NCBI GenBank assembly: GCA_904419745.1
Contig: CAJFSS010000012.1
Span: forward strand, 1 to 64,000
Direction: 5' to 3'
DNA from: Candidatus Pseudoruminococcus merdavium
GTDB taxonomy: Bacteria > Bacillota > Clostridia > Oscillospirales > Ruminococcaceae
DNA length: 64,000 bases
Each line of letters starts with the position of its first letter. Within the stretch, counting starts at the first letter, position 1. The notes below the pieces were generated by a model, which was not told the origin of the DNA, made no database searches, and saw only the letters and a program-made list of their open reading frames with translations. Positions 1,957 to 64,000 of this stretch are shown one piece after another. A program made the translations under genes and the position numbers.

Positions 1957-2268
1957 TTATTTTTCTTCCTTATTTTTATGTTTTTCATCCAGACGATCAA
2001 AGACAATCCGGTAACCGTCGCATCCATATTCCAAAGATCGATTTACCCGGCTGATAGTCGCTGTAGAAGCTCCCGTTTCCCGTACGATATCGCTGTAAAC
2101 ATACTGCTCATCCAGCATTTTTGCAACCTGAAGCCGTTGAGACAATGCTTTCAGTTCCGGAACCGTACACAAGTCCTCAAAAAATTTATAGCATTCCTCC
2201 ATTGTCTCAAGCGATAAGACAGCTTCAAACAAATACTCTGCATTAACATCCTTTAATCTGCTGTTCAT
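1957..2268 (-). CDS. yerC: YerC/YecD family TrpR-like DNA-binding protein
   Basis: This 103-residue protein matches the YerC/YecD branch of the TrpR superfamily, small helical putative repressors that are common in Firmicutes. The helix-turn-helix reads IVRETGASTATISRVNRSL at about residues 61-79. The N-terminal half (EAVLSLETMEECYKFFEDL) is typical of the family. The ligand of this group is not established, so tryptophan control should not be assumed. It is the first gene of the leftward yerC-methyltransferase-hslO set and is divergent from the BclA-like gene. A small TCCGGA inverted repeat lies in its leader. Confidence 0.88.
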   Translation of the reverse strand: MNSRLKDVNAEYLFEAVLSLETMEECYKFFEDLCTVPELKALSQRLQVAKMLDEQYVYSDIVRETGASTATISRVNRSLEYGCDGYRIVFDRLDEKHKNKEEK

Positions 2269-18468: not shown

Positions 18469-18509
18469 AAAAAACCCGTCCCACACCTGATACAAGTATG
18501 GGACGGGTT
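18469..18509 (-). terminator. T-box terminator hairpin
   Basis: AACCCGTCCCA / TGGGACGGGTT stem followed by TTTTTT on the minus strand. It is the terminator arm of the T-box leader and lies directly before the regulator's ribosome site. Confidence 0.93.
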
Positions 18510-18757
18510 ATGAATTCTCATTCCCGCGGTACCACCCAAATTGCACTTTTGCAAAGTGCCGCTCAAGGCTCCAACAAGCCTATGGCCTTAACGCGGCCGC
18601 TACGGAAGTACTTACTTGGCCTTTTGCCGTTCAGCCCCCAGCTAAAGAGTGATTTGAAAAGGAGCATTTTTACCGGTTCCCACCAAACCCCCGGCTCTCT
18701 GAAAAAATGGACATTCCCTTTCCTGTCTCTGTCATTGCCATTGTGGGCTATTGATTT
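18469..18757 (-). promoter_or_regulatory. T-box riboswitch, probable tRNA-Ile specificity
   Basis: The minus strand carries the conserved T-box core GGGTGGTACCGCG (18537-18525), followed by the terminator. Upstream is a Stem I with AGAGAGCCGG and GGTGGGAACCGG. I can pair Stem I: CATTTTT with AAAAATG, and GAAAGGG with CTCCTTTTC. The specifier loop then starts AAATCACTC. The best-fitting codon is ATC (18653-18651, Ile), followed by the usual purine. Other frames give TCA (Ser) or CAC (His). The antiterminator bulge TGGT expects a tRNA with discriminator A, which fits Ile and excludes bacterial Ser (G) and His (C). Uncharged tRNA should allow read-through into the operon. Confidence 0.9.
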
Positions 18758-54714: not shown

Positions 54715-56598
54715 ATGAAATCCATTGTTAGAGTAGCAGGTATTTCCAACAAAATTGTTGCGGCCAATCCCACTCTTTGCTGTGAGGAAATTGGAAATGC
54801 AATAACAAAGATTAAACCCGAAGAACCGGATATTGTGGTTTTCCCGCGGCTATGTCTTTCCGGGAGCAGCTGTGAAGCGCTATTTGGCTACGAAGTACTG
54901 GCAAATGATGCAAAGAAGGCCCTTTCCAGTATTATGGAACGAACAGCAAACTCCCATGCAGTTTATTTAATTGGAATGCCTTTGCTTGCGGGGGGAACGC
55001 TTACAGAAGTCTGTGCTGTTATTCACCGTGGCATGTTGGTGGGATACCTCTCCTGTGAAGGGGCTTTTCTGAGTGAGGACGGAACAATCGCAGATACGGA
55101 TATTTTGCCCGATACAACCGTATTTTCCTGCGGTTCCCTGCGGTTTTGCATCCTTCCCTCCAAAGTGGACGCTCTTCCTGAGAGGCTTGGGGGAATCTCT
55201 CGGCTTGGCTGTGATCTGATAATTGTCCCTTCCTGTGACCCGGCCACTGCAGGTTCCGTACGTAGTTCCCGGGAAATTGCCAAAGCGGTCAGCGCATCAA
55301 CCGGTTGTGCGGTAGTCGTGGTCAACGGCGGCGTAGGAGAAAGCAGCGCTCCCCATATTTATCAGGGGTTTGTATGTATTTGTGAAGATGGGGAGGAAGT
55401 CGCCTTTGCGCAATCCGCTTTTGAAACTGTGAACTGCGTTTATGATATAGACGCCGATATTGTCCACGCACAGCGAAAAAGACATGGTCCACTCTATAAC
55501 GGAGCTTCCCGGATAACTCCGGCTTTTTTCTCCTTCCCTGCAATGGAGAAACTCGGAAAGCTGAAACGTCAAGTGCCGCGTAACCCATTCCTTCCCAGAG
55601 ATCCACAGCGGATGGACAGTTATTGTGAAGAAATTTTCTCCCTGCAATCCGATTCTCTGGCGCTTCGTATGAAGCACATTGGCTGCCGTCAACTGGTTTT
55701 GGGTATTTCCGGAGGGCTTGACTCTACCCTTGCCCTTCTGGTAAGCGTGAGCGCCTGTGACAAGCTTGGAATCCCCCGTGAAAATATCACTGCTGTAACC
55801 ATGCCAGGATTTGGCACAACGGATCGCACCTATTTTAATGCGCTCCATCTCATTGAAGAACTCGGATGCGTCAGTCGCGATATCTCTATCCGTGCAGCGG
55901 TTACCCAACATTTTGAAGATATTTCCCAAGATCCGGCTAATAAAGACGTCACCTATGAAAATGCACAGGCAAGGGAACGCGCCCAAATTTTATTAGACAT
56001 TGCCAACCAAGTCGGCGGTCTTGTGGTGGGAACCGGGGATCTGTCCGAGGAAGCTCTCGGATGGTGCACTTTTGCAGGAGACCATATTGCCAATTTCAAT
56101 GTGAACACAGATATCCCAAAAACACTTATTCGCATCATCGTTGGGAAGGTTGCCAACAAACCGGAGTTTGCCAATGTGCGGGATATCCTCCTGGATATCC
56201 TGGATACCCCGGTCAGCCCAGAGCTTCTTCCTCCGGATGAAACTGGAAAGATTCAGCAAAAAACGGAGGTGATTCTCGGCTCATATGAGCTGCATGACTT
56301 CTTTATCTACTATTTTATCCGGTATCGCCTTGCACCTTCCAAACTCTATGAATACGCCTGCATAGCCTTTGAGGGGATGATGGAGCCGGACTATATCCGG
56401 GAAAAGCTTACCCTTTTCCTCAAACGCTTTATTACCAATCAGTTTAAGCGCAGTTGTTCGCCGGACAGCGCCGCCATTGGTCCCGTTTCTCTTACAGCAG
56501 GAGAGTTTTCCTTCCCCTCCGATATTTCCCCGGCAATGCTCTTAAAAGAACTCAATGACTACCTGGAAACATCCACACAATCCAAGCATACATTCTGA
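54715..56598 (+). CDS. nadE: NAD+ synthetase, two-domain form with degenerate glutaminase
   Basis: A 627-residue NadE: an N-terminal nitrilase-like glutaminase domain (about 1-290) and a C-terminal ATP-pyrophosphatase domain that amidates NaAD ([12 protein letters not shown] at 331-342; [34 protein letters not shown]). The synthetase motifs are intact. In the N-terminal domain, positions that normally hold the Glu-Lys-Cys triad read Arg45 (FPRLCLSG), Cys114 (VGYLSCEG) and Ser149 (FCILPSKVD). Glutamine use therefore looks lost and free ammonia likely. GGAGGG precedes the ATG; the ACT and PFL genes follow. Confidence 0.9.
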
Positions 56599-56615
56599 AA
56601 CAAAAGGAGATTTAT

Positions 56616-56885
56616 ATGAAAGCTGTCATTACTGTTATTGGAAAAGATATGGTAGGAATTCTTGGCAAAGTATGTAACACATGTTCCGAAAAAAACGTCA
56701 ATGTCCTGGAAGTTACACAATCTGTTTTACAGGATTTATTCGTTATGATTATGATGGTGGACATCTCCGCCATGACCTGTAATTTGGCAGAATTTTCTGA
56801 CAACATGGAAATGCTTGGCCGTTCCCTTGGTCTCTCCATCCATGTTATGCACGAGGATATTTTCCATTCTATGCACCGAATTTAA
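56616..56885 (+). CDS. ACT-domain protein (UPF0237)
   Basis: An 89-residue single ACT domain ([23 protein letters not shown] is the ligand-type loop, partly quoted) of the UPF0237/GcvR-like family. It always pairs with the PFL-like gene that follows. Such proteins bind amino acids, but the ligand here is not known. CAAAAGGAG precedes the ATG. It lies 17 bases after nadE and 17 before the PFL gene. Confidence 0.93.
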
Positions 56886-56902
56886 ACTGGAGGTTCCCTG
56901 CA

Positions 56903-58261
56903 ATGATTAACACCACTGAAATTTTAGAAACAATTCAGATGATTACCGAGGAACACCTCGACATTCGGACAATTACCATGGGAATTTCCCTGCTTGACTG
57001 CTGTGACCCGGATATTGACAGGGCCTGCGAAAAAATATATCGGAAAATTACGCAAAAGGCCAAAAATCTAGTAAAAACCGGAGAGGACATTGAAAAAGAA
57101 TATGGAATTCCCATCATCAACAAACGGATTTCCGTCACTCCAATTGCAATGGTATTGGCTGCTTGTGAAAATAAAGACGCCGTCCGTTTTGCAAAAACTC
57201 TTGACCGTGCAGCTCAAACCGTAGGGGTTAATTTCATCGGGGGCTACAGTGCCCTCGTACAAAAAGGATTTGCAGCGGGCGATAAAGAACTAATTGCATC
57301 CATTCCGGAGGCGCTTGCCCAGACAGAGCGCGTTTGCTCCTCCGTCAATATTGGTTCGACAAAAACCGGTATTAACATGGACGCCGTGCGAATTATGGGA
57401 GAAACAGTTAAGCGCAGCGCGGAATTAACCGCTGATCGAAATTGCATTGGAAGTGCAAAACTGGTCGTGTTCTGTAATGCACCGGAGGACAATCCCTTTA
57501 TGGCCGGGGCCTTCCATGGTCCAGGGGAACCGGACTGTATTTTGAATGTTGGTGTATCCGGTCCGGGCGTTGTTCGAGCTGCAATCGCAAAGGCCAAAGG
57601 ATGTTCCATCTCTGAAATTGCAGATATTATCAAACGCACTGCTTTTAAAATCACCCGTATGGGGCAACTGGTCGGTACAGAAGCTTCTAAACGACTGGGC
57701 ATCCCGTTTGGGATTGTAGACCTTTCCCTTGCCCCCACTCCAGCAGTCGGGGATTCTGTTGCCCATATCCTGGAAGAAATGGGACTGGAAACCTGTGGGG
57801 GGCCTGGAACCACTGCCGCCCTTGCGCTGCTCAATGATGCAGTGAAAAAAGGCGGCGTTATGGCGTCCTCCCGTGTTGGTGGGTTGTCCGGCGCTTTTAT
57901 CCCGGTCAGTGAGGATGCGGGCATGATCGCTGCCGCACAACGTGGAGTGCTCCATCTGGAAAAGCTTGAGGCCATGACCGCGGTCTGTTCTGTTGGACTG
58001 GATATGGTGATTGTACCGGGAGATGTCACCCCGGAAATCATATCCGGAATCATCGCAGATGAAGCAGCCATTGGTATGGTCAATTCCAAAACAACGGCAG
58101 TCCGTCTGATCCCCGCCATCGGTAAACAGGTGGGGGATACGCTTGAATTTGGGGGTCTGCTCGGATATGGGCCCGTAATGCCTGTTAACATCGCATCCCC
58201 AGCCGAATTTATCGCACGGGGAGGAACTATTCCCGCACCTCTACAAAGCCTGAAAAATTAA
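56903..58261 (+). CDS. PFL family protein (UPF0210/DUF711)
   Basis: A 452-residue protein of UPF0210 (DUF711), distantly related to pyruvate formate-lyase but without the glycyl-radical loop. Typical blocks are [24 protein letters not shown] and [10 protein letters not shown]. The ACT-PFL pair is found across many anaerobes and has no proven reaction. CTGGAGG precedes the ATG. It ends the nadE-ACT-PFL run; the strong terminator at 58323-58362 follows. Confidence 0.93.
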
Positions 58262-58322
58262 TCTTCAAAAGAAAATCCCAGGACATCATTCTGGGAAGGA
58301 GATAAATCGAGCATGATTTGCT

Positions 58323-58362
58323 AAAAGGAAACCGGAGAGCTACCGCTCTCCGGTTTCCTTTT
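58323..58362. terminator. Bidirectional terminator overlapping a coding end
   Basis: AAAAGGAAACCGGAGAGC and its exact complement with a 4-base loop, 18 pairs, flanked by A- and T-runs. The second arm codes for the last residues of the leftward GNAT gene, whose stop is at 58340. Confidence 0.93.
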
Positions 58363-58981
58363 GCCGAATATAATCTTCCCTGGTAATCACATATACTCTG
58401 GAATCTTTCACACGATCTTTGTGAATAATCTTTTTATCCGATTCAAACCGCATTCCGGCTTTTTCCATTACTCTTCCAGAAGCAGGGTTTTCCCACAAAT
58501 ACTCTGCGCTAACCCGTTCAAAATGCAGTACTTCAAAGCCATACTGTAGTACCGCCTTGAGTGCTTCTGTTGCAAAGCCCTGGCCCCAATAAGAACGCGC
58601 CACGCAATACCCGATATCCGCAGTGCGTCCCAATTTGCTGATATCGTGAAAATCAATAGAACCAATAATGCAATCCGTCCCCTTTAGAACAAGCGCCCAG
58701 TTATAAAATTCTCCCTGCCGGTACATCTGTTCCCAAGCATGGATGACTCGTTTTGTCACCTGTACATTTTTGTGTGCTTCCCAATTGACAGTACTTGCTA
58801 CCACTTCATCACTCATCCAACGGTCAAAGACCTGTTGCGCGTCGCGGTGGGTAAAATGTCTTAAAATTAGGCGCGGTGTCTCGATCACCTTATGCCGCTC
58901 ATAAAAAGCCATCATGAAGAAATTCCCCGCCTTCTTCCATACTCCCAATGTCGATCCAGCCAACTGCTTTTTTCCTAACAT
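58340..58981 (-). CDS. GNAT acetyltransferase (RimJ/RimL-like)
   Basis: A 213-residue acetyltransferase of the Acetyltransf_3 type: IETPRLILRHF near the start of the domain, the acetyl-CoA loop GYCVARSYWGQGFATEAL, and the R-V-S-A-E-Y-L-W-E-N-P-A-S segment with V-M-E-K-A-G-M. Substrates in this group are ribosomal protein termini or small amines. The start is uncertain: ATG 58981 has GAGGG 5 bases upstream, while ATG 58915 (MMAFYERHK) fits the family's usual N-terminus. It ends inside the terminator stem. Confidence 0.85.
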   Translation of the reverse strand: MLGKKQLAGSTLGVWKKAGNFFMMAFYERHKVIETPRLILRHFTHRDAQQVFDRWMSDEVVASTVNWEAHKNVQVTKRVIHAWEQMYRQGEFYNWALVLKGTDCIIGSIDFHDISKLGRTADIGYCVARSYWGQGFATEALKAVLQYGFEVLHFERVSAEYLWENPASGRVMEKAGMRFESDKKIIHKDRVKDSRVYVITREDYIRQKETGER

Positions 58982-59220
58982 CAATACCCTCTTGCTCCTT
59001 TGTTTATAACCAGATTCGATGCATGGCTGACCTGCCCGCTGCATTTCCTTATGCAGAGACTATCTTTTTCAGACAATTTGTGCTATCATCATTAACATTG
59101 AAGTTATAAACCCTGCCATTTTCTTACCCTATTTTACCATACAAAAAAGTAAAGAACAACGAAAAAAATGTCGCTTTAAAACGTGCAGTAAGAGAAACTT
59201 TTCTATGAAAGGAAATGAAT

Positions 59221-59706
59221 ATGCTGATAAAACAAAAAGAAATTTCGCCTTCCCTTCCTCAAAAACTTGCCGCCCTGTTAGAAGGAGAACACAATTGTAT
59301 AGCCAATCTTTCAAACGCCAGCGCCCTCCTTTTTGAAATGATTGACAACATCAATTGGGCCGGATTCTACCTGTTACATAATAAGGAACTCATTCTTGGT
59401 CCATTTCAGGGAAAAGTAGCTTGTGTTCATATTGCACTTGGAAAAGGCGTTTGCGGCACTGCAGCCAGCCAGGATCAAACGCTTATTGTGGATAATGTCC
59501 ATGAGTTTGCGGGCCATATTGCGTGCGACAGTGCTTCCAACTCGGAAATCGTCATTCCCTTACATGCCCATGGCCAAGTAGTTGGCGTACTGGATATTGA
59601 CAGCCCTCTATTCTCCCGGTTTTCTTCTGCAGAGGCCCGGTTGCTTGAGCAAGCTGCAAAGATTATTGAAAATTCCTGCGATTTATCCGTTTTGTCCACC
59701 CTATAA
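59221..59706 (+). CDS. msrC: Free methionine-(R)-sulfoxide reductase (GAF type)
   Basis: A 161-residue GAF-domain protein of the fRMsr family, which reduces free Met-R-SO using thioredoxin. The three conserved cysteines are present: Cys68 (VACVHI), Cys78 (GVCGTAA) and Cys102 (HIACDSASNSEI). The I-N-W-A-G-F-Y-L segment is diagnostic. The frame has two in-frame ATGs; 59221 has the better AAAGGAAA spacing than 59215. A strong terminator follows. Confidence 0.94.
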   Translation: MLIKQKEISPSLPQKLAALLEGEHNCIANLSNASALLFEMIDNINWAGFYLLHNKELILGPFQGKVACVHIALGKGVCGTAASQDQTLIVDNVHEFAGHIACDSASNSEIVIPLHAHGQVVGVLDIDSPLFSRFSSAEARLLEQAAKIIENSCDLSVLSTL

Positions 59707-59824
59707 CTCTTATCTTGATATTTCTGGAAACACACATAGCCATATCAAACCGGAAATCCTTGTCCCCGGCTGGTCCTTTTATGGGATCCTTTCAGGTCAT
59801 TTTTGTGATAAAAAGAAGTCTAGC

Positions 59825-59861
59825 AACAAAGCCAGTACCCTGGAGTACTGGCTTTGTTTTT
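59825..59861 (+). terminator. Terminator after msrC
   Basis: CAAAGCCAGTAC / GTACTGGCTTTG with a 6-base loop, followed by TTTT, about 120 bases after the stop. Confidence 0.9.
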
Positions 59862-59952
59862 GCATTTACATGAAATATATGTAAGTAGATACAAAATACT
59901 TTCCTTTATGATTTCTTCATTTCCACTCTTGTATAATCCCAAATTCAGATAC

Positions 59953-59989
59953 AAAAAACGTCCTCTTTCCAAGAAAGAGGACGTTTTTT
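59953..59989. terminator. Terminator of tRNA-Gly
   Basis: AAAAAACGTCCTCTTT / AAAGAGGACGTTTTTT with a 5-base loop, 4 bases after the mature tRNA-Gly end on the minus strand. It would also work on the plus strand. Confidence 0.93.
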
Positions 59990-59992
59990 GTA

Positions 59993-60066
59993 TGGAGCGG
60001 ATAGCGGGAATCGAACCCGTAACCTCAGCTTGGGAAGCTAATATTTTACCATTAAACTATATCCGC
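59993..60066 (-). tRNA. tRNA-Gly (anticodon CCC)
   Basis: Read on the minus strand: acceptor GCGGATA with TATCCGC, anticodon stem TTAGC / GCTGA around the loop TTCCCAA (anticodon CCC), T-loop GTTCGAT, discriminator T, and an encoded CCA (59995-59993). It decodes GGG. Confidence 0.95.
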
Positions 60067-60080
60067 ATGTCTGTTTTTAT

Positions 60081-60109
60081 ATTATAAATGGTTCCAATCC
60101 AAATTGCAA
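60081..60109 (-). promoter_or_regulatory. Promoter of tRNA-Gly
   Basis: Minus strand TTGCAA (60109-60104), a 17-base spacer and TATAAT (60086-60081). Confidence 0.8.
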
Positions 60110-60236
60110 GAGAAATTTTAGAAAATCCTCAAAAAACTAAAAACAGGGGTTCCCTTTTCCGTATCCATATCAACAATGTACGCTTTCCTGCATAAGTTAG
60201 TACTATATCATATTCTGGGAACCTGGAGGGAACCTT

Positions 60237-60980
60237 ATGCCCATTATTTATCTCAGCCCATCCACACAGGAGTGGAACCCATATGTAGATGGCGGCAACG
60301 AAGAATACTATATGAACCTGATTGCAGACGCCATGGAACCTTATCTTCGTGCAAATGGCATTCAGTTTGTCCGCAATACGCCGGATATGACAGCCGCCTC
60401 TTCCATACGCGCATCAAATGCGGGAAACTATGACTTACATGTTGCCCTGCACTCCAATGCTGCACCGGCAGGACGAGAGGGTCAGGTACGAGGCAGTGAA
60501 GTCTATTATGCCGCCGTCAGCCGCAATGGAAAACGAGCGGCCGACATCATTGCCAATAATTTAAAACTGATTTATCCGGATCCAAACAGGGTACGCGCTC
60601 TGACAACAAATAATTTGGGGGAAGTTACTAAAACAAAAGCGCCCGCAGTTTTGATCGAATTTGCATACCACGATAATCCCGAGGATGCACAGTGGATACG
60701 CGATAACATTGATGAAATAGCCCAAAACGTGGTACTTTCCCTCACAGAATACTTTGGTATCCCATTTGTGACGCCGGTACCGATCCGATACGGTCGAGTC
60801 CGTGTATCCCCAGGTAGTTATCTGAATATTCGGTCTCGTCCCGCTTTAGACGCCCCTGTGATCCGCAGGGCATACAATGGGGAAACCCTCGCCATTGTAG
60901 GCCAGACAGACGGTTGGTATGTGGTGGAAATCGATGATGTTGTCGGCTACGCTTACAGCGATTACATTGTTGTAGCTTAG
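60237..60980 (+). CDS. N-acetylmuramoyl-L-alanine amidase with SH3 domain
   Basis: A 247-residue Amidase_3 protein (about 1-180), which cuts the bond between N-acetylmuramic acid and the stem peptide, plus a C-terminal bacterial SH3 domain (about 185-247; YLNIRSRPALDAPVI). The zinc-site residues read EE in GGNEEYYMN, H-S-N in VALHSNAAP, and E in VLIEFAYHDN. The opening LSPSTQEWNPY is that of the spore/phage-type amidases. No signal peptide is visible; export would need another route, such as release from the mother cell. CTGGAGGG precedes the ATG. Confidence 0.9.
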   Translation: MPIIYLSPSTQEWNPYVDGGNEEYYMNLIADAMEPYLRANGIQFVRNTPDMTAASSIRASNAGNYDLHVALHSNAAPAGREGQVRGSEVYYAAVSRNGKRAADIIANNLKLIYPDPNRVRALTTNNLGEVTKTKAPAVLIEFAYHDNPEDAQWIRDNIDEIAQNVVLSLTEYFGIPFVTPVPIRYGRVRVSPGSYLNIRSRPALDAPVIRRAYNGETLAIVGQTDGWYVVEIDDVVGYAYSDYIVVA

Positions 60981-60992
60981 AGAAAATATATC

Positions 60993-61029
60993 AAAACAGG
61001 CATGGAGGAGTATGCTCCATGCCTGTTTT
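60993..61029. terminator. Bidirectional terminator
   Basis: AAAACAGGCATGGAG / CTCCATGCCTGTTTT with a 7-base loop. It serves the amidase and the convergent small gene. Confidence 0.92.
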
Positions 61030-61030
61030 C

Positions 61031-61234
61031 TTAATCTTCTACCACTATTTTGTTGGGTGCATGCGCTCTGAGCGGGCAAAACTGAGAAGTTCTACAGCCA
61101 ACCATAGAATGATATGCGCAGCTTTCTCCATCTGCTGTATAGACTTTGCCATCTTCTGAAGTATAGTGGACGTCAATACTGTAGTCCATTTGCATTGAAG
61201 GGCAAAAACCATTGTAGGAAACCCATTTTTCCAT
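61031..61234 (-). CDS. Small cysteine-containing protein (67 aa)
   Basis: A 67-residue protein with five cysteines (FCPSMQ, ESCAYH, VGCRTSQFCPL), the kind of spacing seen in small metal- or disulphide-containing proteins. I do not recognise the family. AGGTGAG lies 4-5 bases before the ATG, and the gene converges on the amidase with a shared terminator. The order C-P-x(n)-C-x(n)-C-x(5)-C-P-L looks constrained, but no homologue can be named. Confidence 0.55.
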   Translation of the reverse strand: MEKWVSYNGFCPSMQMDYSIDVHYTSEDGKVYTADGESCAYHSMVGCRTSQFCPLRAHAPNKIVVED

Positions 61235-61476
61235 TTTCTCACCTGATTCCAGTTATGGCCCCTGTTTTTTACAGGCAGCATTTAAAAAGATTTCTTGTCA
61301 TATTATAACATGGGATACTGCCAGATACAAGAACAGGTACTCTATTTTCATTTCTATTTTTTTCCATAAAAATTGGCCATTTGTTGTCTAAATGAAAACA
61401 CAATGTTAAATCGCACATATTTTCACTTTATTTTTTAAAGAAAATATAATTTTAGCATGATTTTTTTTTGTATTTA

Positions 61477-61485
61477 TGCTATAAT
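61477..61485 (+). promoter_or_regulatory. Extended -10 promoter of the GNAT gene
   Basis: TGCTATAAT, an extended -10 with a perfect TATAAT, about 110 bases before the gene. The preceding 200 bases (from 61280) are AT-rich without a gene. Confidence 0.55.
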
Positions 61486-61508
61486 GGAAAAAAGCTGATA
61501 GAAAGAAT

Positions 61509-61578
61509 GGCAAATGACATATACTTCTATGGTATGTCCGTCTGACAGGCGGCCAATTTTGTTTCAGCCTACTTTGCC
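61509..61578 (+). promoter_or_regulatory. Structured leader, type unknown
   Basis: GGCAAA (61509-61514) pairs with TTTGCC (61573-61578) and encloses three smaller helices: GACATA / TATGTC, CCGTCT / AGGCGG and GGC / GCC. The ribosome site AGGAGG follows at once. The shape is that of a multi-way junction regulatory RNA, but I cannot match it to a known riboswitch. Confidence 0.45.
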
Positions 61579-61595
61579 GATAGGAGGAATTTTAT

Positions 61596-62414
61596 ATGTT
61601 TGAACTCAATAAAAAAAGAACCAGCGATGATGTTGATCTCCTGTTTTCCGATTGGTATGACGATATGACCCTTCTTGCCTTGGAAGAAGGAAAAACTGAT
61701 GCGCATATTTATGTGGATAATTTGGATTTTGCCCATGTAGCCATCATTCTTCGTGGATTCCGAATGAGAATTGCCGGCGATCCCTTGGACAAAAATGTCG
61801 TTGCAGCAGTACAGGATTTCTTCGATAACGTACTGATCGGCAATACTGATCCAGATATGCCAAAATATCTGATTATCTATTACCAGGAATCTGAATGGCA
61901 GGATGTCCTGCTCAATATTCTTTCAAAAATCAATCCGAAATATTTTGCACGTACTTATTACCGGCTGAATATGCTCGATCACATTCCGGATGTCCCATTG
62001 CTGGAGGGCCACCGTTTTGTCAATATTGAAGAAGTTTACAATACCATGCAGGATTATGAAAACTACAAGACTGTGGTGCAGGAAATGCAGTCAGAAATCT
62101 CCAGCCCGGAAAACTTTTTAAAATATTGCTTTGGTGTATGTACTGTAAAAGACCATACAATTACCGGATGGGCTATGGCGGAATATGTCAATCTTTCCGG
62201 CTGTGAAATTGGTTTTAACATTCCCGAAGAAAATAAAGAAACGGAAAATACCGCCCCTGCCCTGATAGCGGAATTCATGCGTATGGCAAAAGACCGTGGC
62301 CTGCAATATGTTGGATGGAGCGGATACAAACACAATTCTTTTGGTGCCGAAGCTGTACAGGCAGCGGGTATGAAACACACAAAGGATTATCCTTGTATTT
62401 ATGTAGATCTTTAA
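61596..62414 (+). CDS. GNAT-family acetyltransferase
   Basis: A 272-residue protein whose C-terminal half (about 150-272) resembles GNAT_acetyltran (PF12746-like): a mid-domain core with T-G-W-A-M-A-E-Y-V and the final V-G-W-S-G-Y-K-H-N-S-F-G-A-E-A-V-Q-A-A-G-M-K segment. The N-terminal half is an acidic, unassigned extension. The substrate is unknown. AGGAGG precedes the ATG. It stands alone between its structured leader and a terminator. Confidence 0.75.
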   Translation: MFELNKKRTSDDVDLLFSDWYDDMTLLALEEGKTDAHIYVDNLDFAHVAIILRGFRMRIAGDPLDKNVVAAVQDFFDNVLIGNTDPDMPKYLIIYYQESEWQDVLLNILSKINPKYFARTYYRLNMLDHIPDVPLLEGHRFVNIEEVYNTMQDYENYKTVVQEMQSEISSPENFLKYCFGVCTVKDHTITGWAMAEYVNLSGCEIGFNIPEENKETENTAPALIAEFMRMAKDRGLQYVGWSGYKHNSFGAEAVQAAGMKHTKDYPCIYVDL

Positions 62415-62443
62415 TAATTGTCTTTATCACCACTTCATGAGAA

Positions 62444-62486
62444 AATAAATATCCCCCTCTCCATTTAGGAGAGGGGGATATTTATT
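62444..62486. terminator. Bidirectional terminator
   Basis: AATAAATATCCCCCTCTCC and its exact complement, 19 pairs, with a 5-base loop. It separates the GNAT gene from the convergent oadG-like gene and touches that gene's stop codon. Confidence 0.94.
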
Positions 62487-62614
62487 TATTTACTGGTAAA
62501 TTTATTGAGCGCCATCATAATCAAAATAATGGTCACGGCAACAATAAATATGCCAAGCATTCCCCAGCCCATAATGGGAAGAGAATTCAAAAATGCACCG
62601 AAATCGATCTTCAT
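62486..62614 (-). CDS. OadG-like small membrane subunit (42 aa)
   Basis: A 42-residue single-pass membrane protein (MKIDFGAFLNSLPIMGWGML, then a hydrophobic helix FIVAVTIILIMMA and a short basic tail). It lies 12 bases after oadB and has an AGGAGAAAGG ribosome site. The position, size and topology match the gamma subunit of sodium-pumping decarboxylases, which holds the complex together. It is shorter than classical OadG (about 80 residues) and lacks the C-terminal metal-binding part. Confidence 0.75.
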   Translation of the reverse strand: MKIDFGAFLNSLPIMGWGMLGIFIVAVTIILIMMALNKFTSK

Positions 62615-62626
62615 ACCTTTCTCCTC

Positions 62627-63751
62627 CTATCTGGCCACCAGGCTTAAAATCAGGCCGCCGGCAATGACAGATGCAATCTGACCGGAGACATTTGCACCGA
62701 CTGCATGCATGAGCAAGAAGTTCTGCGGATCTTCTTTCAGGCCCATTTTATGGATAACACGTGCAGACATCGGAAATGCTGAAATACCTGCTGCTCCAAC
62801 CATTGGATTGATCTTTTTCTTGCTGAACAGATTGAGGAATTTTGCAAAGAAAACACCACCAACCGTATCAAAAATAAAGGCAATCAGACCAAGGCCCATG
62901 ATCAGAAGGGTTTCCGGAGTCAGGAACAAGCTTGCCTGCATTTTTGTTGCAATGGTAATACCAAGCAACAGAGTTACCAGGTTTGCAAGAGCATTTTGAG
63001 CGGTCTCCGAAAGAGAATTGAGTACGCCGCATTCCCGAATCAGGTTACCAAACATCAAAAATCCAATCAGGGAAACAGAACGTGGTGCAACAATTCCCGC
63101 AACCACTGTGATGAGAACCGGGAACAGAATTCTTGTCATTTTGGAGACATTTTTCTGTTCATAAGGCATCCGGATCATACGCTCTTTTTTGGTGGTAATC
63201 AAACGGATGACAGCCGGCTGGACAATCGGCACAAGCGCCATGTAGGAGTATGCCGCCACAATAATTGCACCGATGTACTTAGAATCAAAATAGTTAGCGA
63301 CAAAAATGGAAGTCGGACCATCCGCTGCACCAATGATACCAATGGAAGCAGCATCTTTAATCTCAAATCCGAACAGGGACGCCAAGCTGATCGTAAAGAA
63401 AATACCAAACTGGGCCGCCGCACCAAATAAAATCATCTTCGGGTTGGAAAGCAATGGACCGAAGTCAATCATTGCGCCAATACCAATGAAAAGCAGCAAC
63501 GGGAACAGCTCATTTGCGATACCCGCATTAAACAGAATATCAATGACGCCCTCTTCGGTCCCGGTGTCATAAATCTGTGTAACCGCACCAGAAAGCGGGA
63601 GGTTAACCAGAATAGCACCAAAACCCATTGGCAACAACAAAGTCGGCTCCATCTCTTTCTTAATGGCAAGATAGATCAGAACACCGCCGATGACCCACAT
63701 GACCACTTGCTGCCAGGTAATGTTGAGTACATTTGAAAATAGATCTCCCAT
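62627..63751 (-). CDS. oadB: Sodium-translocating decarboxylase, beta subunit (OadB/GcdB/MmdB family)
   Basis: A 374-residue polytopic membrane protein of the OadB family, the channel through which biotin-decarboxylation exports two sodium ions. The conserved IGAADGPTSIFVANYFDSKY block, the N-P-M-V-G-A-A-G-I-S-A-F-P-M-S-A-R segment and the NFLLMHAVGANVSGQ end are intact, including the Asp-Gly-Pro ion-site motif. ATG 63751 is preferred over 63760 for spacing from GAAGG. No carboxyltransferase or biotin-carrier gene is next to it. A probable manganese riboswitch lies upstream. Confidence 0.92.
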   Translation of the reverse strand: MGDLFSNVLNITWQQVVMWVIGGVLIYLAIKKEMEPTLLLPMGFGAILVNLPLSGAVTQIYDTGTEEGVIDILFNAGIANELFPLLLFIGIGAMIDFGPLLSNPKMILFGAAAQFGIFFTISLASLFGFEIKDAASIGIIGAADGPTSIFVANYFDSKYIGAIIVAAYSYMALVPIVQPAVIRLITTKKERMIRMPYEQKNVSKMTRILFPVLITVVAGIVAPRSVSLIGFLMFGNLIRECGVLNSLSETAQNALANLVTLLLGITIATKMQASLFLTPETLLIMGLGLIAFIFDTVGGVFFAKFLNLFSKKKINPMVGAAGISAFPMSARVIHKMGLKEDPQNFLLMHAVGANVSGQIASVIAGGLILSLVAR

Positions 63752-63861
63752 AAATCCCATCCTTCAGTTTAATTTTATCAATCAATCCTTTGTCCATTTT
63801 TAATTTAAAAAATATTGAACGCCGGATTCATTTTGTAGTTTATCTGCAGAAGGGTTTCTAC

Positions 63862-63911
63862 AAAAAAAGACCTTTATGACAGAGCACATTCAGCAACTGT
63901 CATAAAAGTCT
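63862..63911 (-). terminator. Terminator of the riboswitch expression platform
   Basis: Minus-strand arms GACTTTTATGACAG and CTGTCATAAAGGTC (14 pairs with one G-T) around a 14-base loop, followed by seven T. The first arm contains the riboswitch's P1 3' strand (63908-63901). Confidence 0.92.
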
Positions 63912-63998
63912 CGCTTTTTAAAGTATGTGCAGATTTTTTTCAAAACCGGTATGGTGCGACATACTACGGGGCAAGCCCGCAAGCTACTCCCTTTTATG
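63901..63998 (-). promoter_or_regulatory. yybP-ykoY (manganese) riboswitch aptamer
   Basis: The minus strand begins CATAAAAG, then GGAGTAGC, and ends AGCGAGA followed by CTTTTATG. The outer strands pair perfectly as an 8-pair P1. The two inner blocks match the conserved Mn-binding loops of yybP-ykoY aptamers (GGAGUAGC and AGCAAGA) in order, with a spacing of about 100 bases. The 3' strand of P1 is shared with the terminator arm, so metal binding should block termination and switch the downstream genes on. The aptamer type is recognised from memory of known examples; the promoter lies beyond the window. Confidence 0.78.
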
Positions 63999-64000
63999 AA

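Follow-up and report, generated by a model that had tools for sequence, protein, structure and literature searches.

The window analysed here, a stretch of 64,000 nucleotides from Candidatus Pseudoruminococcus merdavium (contig CAJFSS010000012.1), carries on its minus strand a leader of the manganese riboswitch type in front of two genes that resemble membrane subunits of the oxaloacetate decarboxylase (OAD) complex. Judged from its sequence, the leader at 63999-63862 belongs to the yybP-ykoY class, has a terminator as its expression platform and stands ahead of an OadB pair that has no adjoining decarboxylase gene. This arrangement recurs in the lineage of the window genome. A preliminary description of this DNA had proposed a manganese-riboswitch class and an unusual target, and comparison with relatives agrees with both. 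R1, a covariance model built solely from 29 oadB leaders, recovers the two known Mn riboswitches of Escherichia coli, mntP and alx.

Table 1. Features of the oadB leader, the genes behind it and a related element in another record.
Feature	Position	Strand	Basis or remark
yybP-ykoY-type (manganese) aptamer	63900..63999	minus	fold; R1 78.6 bits; family covariation
L1 block GGGAGUAGC	63983..63991	minus	also read as GGGAGTAGC 63991-63983; 29-leader alignment
L3 adenine	63952	minus	aligns with Mn-discriminating A41 (Lactococcus lactis) / A48 (Xanthomonas oryzae)
AGCGAGAC block: P1.2 3´ strand and L1 3´ side	63908..63915	minus	direct reading, alignment
Intrinsic terminator sharing the P1.1 3´ strand (expression platform)	63862..63912	minus	fold; layout in relatives
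oadB-family membrane protein, 377 aa	62627..63760	minus	PF03977, 2.3e-156; alternative start 63751
Mini-gamma, 42 aa, one hydrophobic stretch by eye	62486..62614	minus	too short for the gamma C-terminal domain
Aptamer of the Halothermothrix sp. DTU029 metagenome-assembled genome (MAG; L081)	2124-2236		P4-like hairpin and terminator, visible by eye

The aptamer is composed of P1.1, L1, P1.2, P2 and the P3.1-L3-P3.2 arm, and P4 is absent from the window copy. P1 is formed by CATAAAAG (63998-63991) and CTTTTATG (63908-63901) with 8 pairs, and U63999-A63900 extends the base. Both blocks of the class are found, an L1 that is GGGGAGUAG-like and GCGAGAC/GCAAGAC; the 8-pair P1 and the two conserved minus-strand blocks of the preliminary description are therefore recovered by direct reading and folding. 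The first 8 of the 9 L1 positions, GGGAGUAG, are invariant in the 29 aligned leaders, and the final C is conserved in at least 90% of them. The L3 loop of the window reads CCA where UCA is expected and retains the discriminating adenine, whose column is conserved in at least 90% of the alignment (L008 is misaligned there and has ACA by eye). According to excerpts of PMC6754395, the L3 of the Mn riboswitch is UCA-A41 in L. lactis and ACA-A48 in X. oryzae, and the adenine discriminates Mn. The aptamer alone folds at -27.9 kcal/mol (z -2.4 against shuffles; 199 of 200 shuffles are less stable).

The terminator comprises a 16-pair outer stem followed by a T run and folds alone at -23.5 kcal/mol; aptamer and terminator together reach a z of -4.2, and none of 200 shuffles is as stable. 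Fold and comparison both agree with the ON-switch layout described previously, in which the terminator reuses the bases of the P1 3´ strand. Under a strict rule, a terminator that shares P1 was observed in 28 of 33 oadB leaders compared with 0.28 expected (L049 is not placeable by this rule), and a looser rule finds it in 32 of 33 compared with 8.6 expected. A promoter with 12 of 12 consensus positions (TTGACA-17-TATAAT) is located just outside the window, 28 nt upstream of the aptamer (3056-3028 of record L001), and is the sole promoter-like site of a consensus scan of L001 2700-3200, the threshold being 9 of 12 positions, at which 1.2 +/- 1.1 sites are expected by chance. Since the only consensus promoter lies upstream of the aptamer, no such site falls between the terminator and oadB, where the preliminary description had considered a promoter that bypasses the leader. 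A 7-nt palindrome just behind the -10 element (TTGTTTT/AAAACAA, L001 3008-3027) is a candidate operator, and about 35 nt separate the promoter from the end of a TetR-like gene upstream of it, identified by eye on the minus strand at L001 3091-3726.

The mini-gamma protein matches no Pfam family; its match to NCBIfam NF040909, 'OadG-related small transporter subunit', scores 16.2 bits, with a cut-off of 25 bits. A tiny partner gene is found beside OadB in nearly all aptamer-led relatives. No decarboxylase or biotin-carrier open reading frame is visible by eye near the pair (window 55000-64000; L001 2000-9000), which bears out the earlier statement that only an oadB-family gene and a 42-residue gamma-like partner lie downstream. 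Within the flanks of 95 loci of the OadB clade, OadA matches are located near L106, L089 and L086 and biotin-carrier matches near L106, L089, L058 and L060. None of these loci is aptamer-led; 16 of the 34 aptamer loci have at least 3 kb on both sides, and L055, identical in sequence to the aptamer-bearing L005, is grouped with the aptamer-less loci in this and the following comparison. The gamma C-domain was found in 0 of 34 aptamer loci and, by the same searches, in 4 of 15 canonical loci, so the missing docking domain is argued mainly from gene length. Lachnospiraceae orthologues (L064, L071, L073, L074, L095, L107, L111) have mini-gammas with long tails (~96-127 aa), and R1 finds no aptamer at these loci, of which L073 has little upstream sequence.

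OadB orthologues were collected by a genome search (15 rows at a minimum of 69% identity, window included) and a contig search (best 80 of 589); the closest named relatives among these best 80 of 589 belong to Oscillospiraceae, Eubacteriales, Ruminococcus and Bittarella. The motif GGAGTAG is located at about -130 to -310 in many orthologues. Alignment A1 comprises 29 of the 32 motif-bearing leaders, the long leaders L013, L056 and L075 being dropped, and its structure was written by hand on the same rows. In this structure 88.6% of the cells pair, 19 of 25 pairs are changed on both sides, and the covariation score is 0.450 compared with 0.176 +/- 0.014. A slid control gives 0.08-0.14; because the structure was drawn on the same rows this control leans in its favour, and the gap is large nonetheless. 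P1.1-L1-P1.2, P2 and P3.1-L3-P3.2 are supported by covariation in the oadB leaders. The P4 site holds an extra hairpin or insert in L035, L068, L070 and L082 and a hairpin in the Halothermothrix element.

Since the window copy is 1 of the 29 training rows, its own R1 score is less telling than the recurrence of the aptamer upstream of 34 of 94 distinct orthologues (35 of 95 loci with L055, a duplicate of L005). On a quick protein tree the 34 aptamer-led OadBs are scattered, with 19 changes, at least 7 of them forced by starred branches. R1 finds the aptamer at 0 of 16 canonical OadB loci, a result that is a little weakened by the fact that L017 and L031 have less than 300 nt upstream. When R1 is run with filters off on two E. 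coli K-12 regions of 6 kb each, its top matches are the leaders of mntP (22.6 bits) and alx (18.9 bits), with the next best at 8.7 bits. R1 under-counts, because the genomes of L081, L042 and L051 are empty at E 0.001, though the L081 element is plain by eye and that of L051 scores 30 bits. At gathering cut-offs, 19 of the 60 aptamer-less orthologues were scanned for a different Rfam element that might substitute for the aptamer; the scan found one tRNA and nothing else. That the hairpins are accidental, or belong to a common leader that does not switch, has a negligible probability. The lack of an RF00080 match in the window might speak for it, but the aptamer recurs upstream of 34 orthologues, the kind of genes that follow it speaks against chance, and the covariation of the oadB leaders led us to reject this possibility.

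RF00080, which the preliminary description had named as a check, finds no match to the window leader in Rfam scans, and its gathering cut-off is not reached. The absence of a hit above threshold is thus literally true, and we ascribe it to a limit of the model: RF00080 is above cut-off in 0 of 21 relatives (4 of 21 matched below it) and misses the mntP leader of the window's own genome (G000), so that its failure at the window counts little. Among 14 named control genomes, 5 matched and 2 pass the cut-off, and at E 1 the model is absent from 14 oadB loci, including that of the window. The best Rfam match of the leader is RF02617 SSRC10, which spans window 63862-63997 at 32.5 bits (E 1.2e-4; cut-off 56 bits) and also matches, below cut-off, 7 of 14 oadB leaders at E 1. 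The Na+ (DUF1646) riboswitch is not among the 8 cmscan matches of the leader up to E 10 and was discarded as a candidate.

The genes behind the aptamer in related genomes are predominantly transporters. In the window's own genome a second R1 hit is located directly 5´ of mntP (PF02659, 3.4e-54). R1, run with stricter filters in these surveys, gives 43 hits in 61 genomes (its own and 60 relatives) and hits in at least 120 of the 245 genomes of the order. All 43 and the 80 best-scoring further hits among the matches listed for the order were classified: 40 precede OadB, 27 a P-type ATPase, 23 MntP and 21 a CaCA Na/Ca exchanger, and the remaining 12 of the 123 precede CitMHS (5), Na/Pi (2), Band 7 (2), TetR-like genes (2, by eye) and one gene left unassigned. 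OadB is the most frequent gene, with a share that is inflated by R1 itself and by the selection of the best-scoring hits; the presence of the other families is unaffected. Pfam was used to check 1-2 representatives of each non-OadB transporter family and Band 7; the remaining hits were assigned by blastp to representatives or to each other, and MntP of G047 and G004 by eye. Example loci with the aptamer ahead of MntP, CitMHS, Na/Pi, Band 7 and TetR-like genes are L152, L121, L123, L147, L143, L135 and L239.

Homology to proven aptamers, together with the MntP and ATPase copies, points to Mn2+ as the ligand, and the leader very probably acts as an ON switch for it. GGAGUA is present in 39 of 40 oadB-led hits. 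By a simple pattern count, the L3 type of L. lactis and E. coli alx occurs in 35 of 40 oadB, 18 of 21 CaCA and 0 of 23 mntP leaders, and the type of X. oryzae and E. coli mntP in 23 of 23 mntP and 2 of 40 oadB leaders; 3 of 40 oadB leaders have neither type, and the window L3 fits neither exactly. This split, together with the CCA of the window, could indicate that the aptamer has drifted in oadB leaders and senses another ion (e.g. Na+, Ca2+, Co2+, Cd2+). We consider such a drift very improbable, because the discriminating adenine is retained and each of the two L3 types is represented among known Mn riboswitches, by L. lactis and X. oryzae in excerpts of PMC6754395 and by E. coli alx and mntP in excerpts of PMC9603457. 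The two subtypes may reflect different thresholds or a different response to pH. The split by target parallels E. coli, in which mntP has one type and alx the type of most oadB and CaCA leaders.

OadB also stands behind other aptamer-led genes. In L081, the aptamer is followed by a P-type ATPase (PF00690/PF00122/PF00689), by OadB 18 nt behind the stop codon and by a mini-gamma. This aptamer scores 19.6 bits with R1 (E 0.32 over 99 sources, 2.2e-4 in 601 bases) and 17 bits with RF00080. L042 has the same ATPase-OadB junction on a contig that begins within the ATPase gene. In L051, a Ruminococcus MAG, the aptamer (30 bits, E 0.0011) precedes mntP (PF02659), and OadB lies 288 nt behind mntP in the same orientation. 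An MntP-like gene lies behind OadB in L041 and a divergent ATPase in L093, and blast finds no further MntP or ATPase neighbours among the 95 clade loci apart from weak ATPase hits in L056. In L007, an aptamer-led OadB locus, a fluoride riboswitch that passes the cut-off of RF01734 is located just 3´, at 2792-2881.

The best reading of these data is that the pair stands alone as a Mn2+-induced, Na+-coupled exporter of Mn2+ or a helper of its export. The Mn-type leader and the absence of a decarboxylase gene beside the pair argue for export, and we place the probability that the riboswitch-induced pair exports Mn2+ or a similar divalent metal in a Na+-coupled manner at about 0.57. That Mn2+ itself is exported falls somewhat short of an even chance, and still more tentatively, OadB and mini-gamma would found a new family of Mn exporters, a decarboxylase pump subunit without its enzyme that keeps the Na+ site and belongs to the Mn regulon. 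Between the two explanations offered in the preliminary description, metal/sodium homeostasis is favoured over a Mn-dependent decarboxylase, because in relatives the aptamer also leads genes for MntP, P-type ATPases and Na/Ca exchangers, and because OadB follows aptamer-led genes in two records while the genome's own OadA locus has no aptamer. In the literature searched, as far as its excerpts extend, the targets of Mn riboswitches are exporters and no pairing of yybP-ykoY with OAD is reported, a listing in the two founding 2015 papers being possible.

Several observations weigh against this reading. RF00080 does not match the window leader. Of the 94 clade members, 60 have no R1 match at their own 5´ end (the available upstream sequence is too short in L041, L048 and L073), and the aptamer-led leader L006/G023 has its L1 altered to GGGCGUAG. 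The L081 element scores only the bits given above and a whole-genome R1 search of its record finds nothing at E 0.001; the 288-nt gap in L051 leaves a single transcript not assured. The pair retains all seven residues, D203, Y229, N373, G377, S382, R389 and N412, that we take to be essential for Na+ and carboxybiotin in OadB, so that mutation has not abolished decarboxylase function. Members of this OadB clade in Clostridium occur in an operon with OadA and biotin carrier (citrate-lyase/OAD; L106, L089). A clade-specific residue that marks Mn transport was sought and rejected: D295 and others are common to this operon, and hence none of the residues identified indicates that the substrate has changed. 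Finally, 222 of the 245 genomes of the order encode MntP, which led us to reject OadB as its replacement. One mntP leader was taken from each of 20 genomes, half of the 40 that have an aptamer-led oadB; 3 of these leaders carry the aptamer (one is from G251) and 17 have none at the sensitivity of R1. A single partner gene for all cases was also rejected, as the partners are mixed (MntP, ATPase, CaCA, CitMHS).

The retained Na+-site residues would also suit a Mn2+ ON switch whose pair moves Na+ only, tuning the Na+ gradient for Na+-coupled Mn2+/Ca2+ exchangers or the Na+/pH balance under manganese or alkaline stress. CaCA Na/Ca exchangers are aptamer-led in 21 of the 123 hits, in G024 together with an aptamer-led OadB. 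OAD is known to power its Na+ export through the alpha subunit and the biotin carrier, but no gene for either lies beside the pair, and the aptamer partner in G000 and G008 is MntP rather than a Na+ exchanger. This explanation therefore appears unlikely, even though E. coli alx, which has the L3 type of most oadB leaders, responds to alkaline pH and Mn in excerpts of PMC9603457.

A second alternative takes the pair as a conditional beta/gamma module that receives alpha and biotin carrier from elsewhere, with Mn2+ inducing a second pump for a Mn2+-dependent enzyme or pathway. All 10 aptamer-OadB genomes that were checked encode PF02436 proteins at another site, mostly OadA-type by length, and contig C1 of G000 (L250, 104000-116000) carries carboxyltransferase, biotin carrier and OadA in a row without an adjoining OadB (read by eye; OadA by PF02436); the Clostridium operon points in the same direction. 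However, this OadA/biotin-carrier locus has no aptamer (R1 best 14.3 bits, E 0.53), and the length of the mini-gamma leaves no room for the domain that docks alpha. A second OadB of ~46-54% identity is present in 8 of 8 aptamer-OadB genomes examined; it adjoins an OadG-like 128-aa protein in G000 (by eye) and OadA in G023 and G038. On balance we regard the module as rather improbable.

Under the preferred reading of a Mn2+-induced exporter, binding of Mn2+ at high concentration would stabilise P1, block the terminator and turn on oadB and the mini-oadG, as published for L. lactis. The pair might then move Mn2+ through the elevator-type fold of OadB in exchange for Na+, and the carboxybiotin step could lie idle without the gamma C-domain; both steps are guesses. 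If this is true, a well-known family of energy-conserving pumps includes metal exporters, and annotations as 'oxaloacetate decarboxylase beta subunit' in such clostridia mislead. Because the Rfam manganese model misses this type of aptamer, the manganese regulons of the order are under-annotated. Elsewhere in the window, a T-box leader is located at 18496-18744 on the minus strand (103.3 bits).

Compared with known systems, the riboswitch class is familiar and OadB as its target is new to us. The leader shares GGGAGUAG, the L3 adenine and AGCGAGAC with the yybP-ykoY class (RF00080; L. lactis yoaB, X. oryzae, E. coli mntP and alx), and the competition between P1 and terminator is as in L. lactis in excerpts of PMC11087558. 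The window copy differs from the class in its OadB-family target, the absence of P4, the CCA in L3 and the lack of a score with RF00080. SSRC10 of Streptococcus pyogenes has the same blocks, L3 and terminator, whereas it is catalogued as a small RNA; it lies 5´ of a putative calcium transporter in excerpts of PMC3675131. Because its consensus contains the aptamer blocks and a terminator ahead of this transporter, SSRC10 itself is probably a Mn-riboswitch leader misfiled as a small RNA. In the OAD beta-gamma complex (PDB 6iva/6iww) the beta subunit has 433 aa compared with 377 aa here, and the window pair departs from it further in its 42-aa mini-gamma, the lack of alpha and biotin carrier nearby and the Mn-type leader. 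The Na+-I (DUF1646) riboswitch, in excerpts of PMC9337991, fronts pycB in Acetivibrio, which is described as coding for oxaloacetate decarboxylase; it is likewise an ion riboswitch ahead of an OAD gene, and differs from the window leader in RNA class and in the ion.
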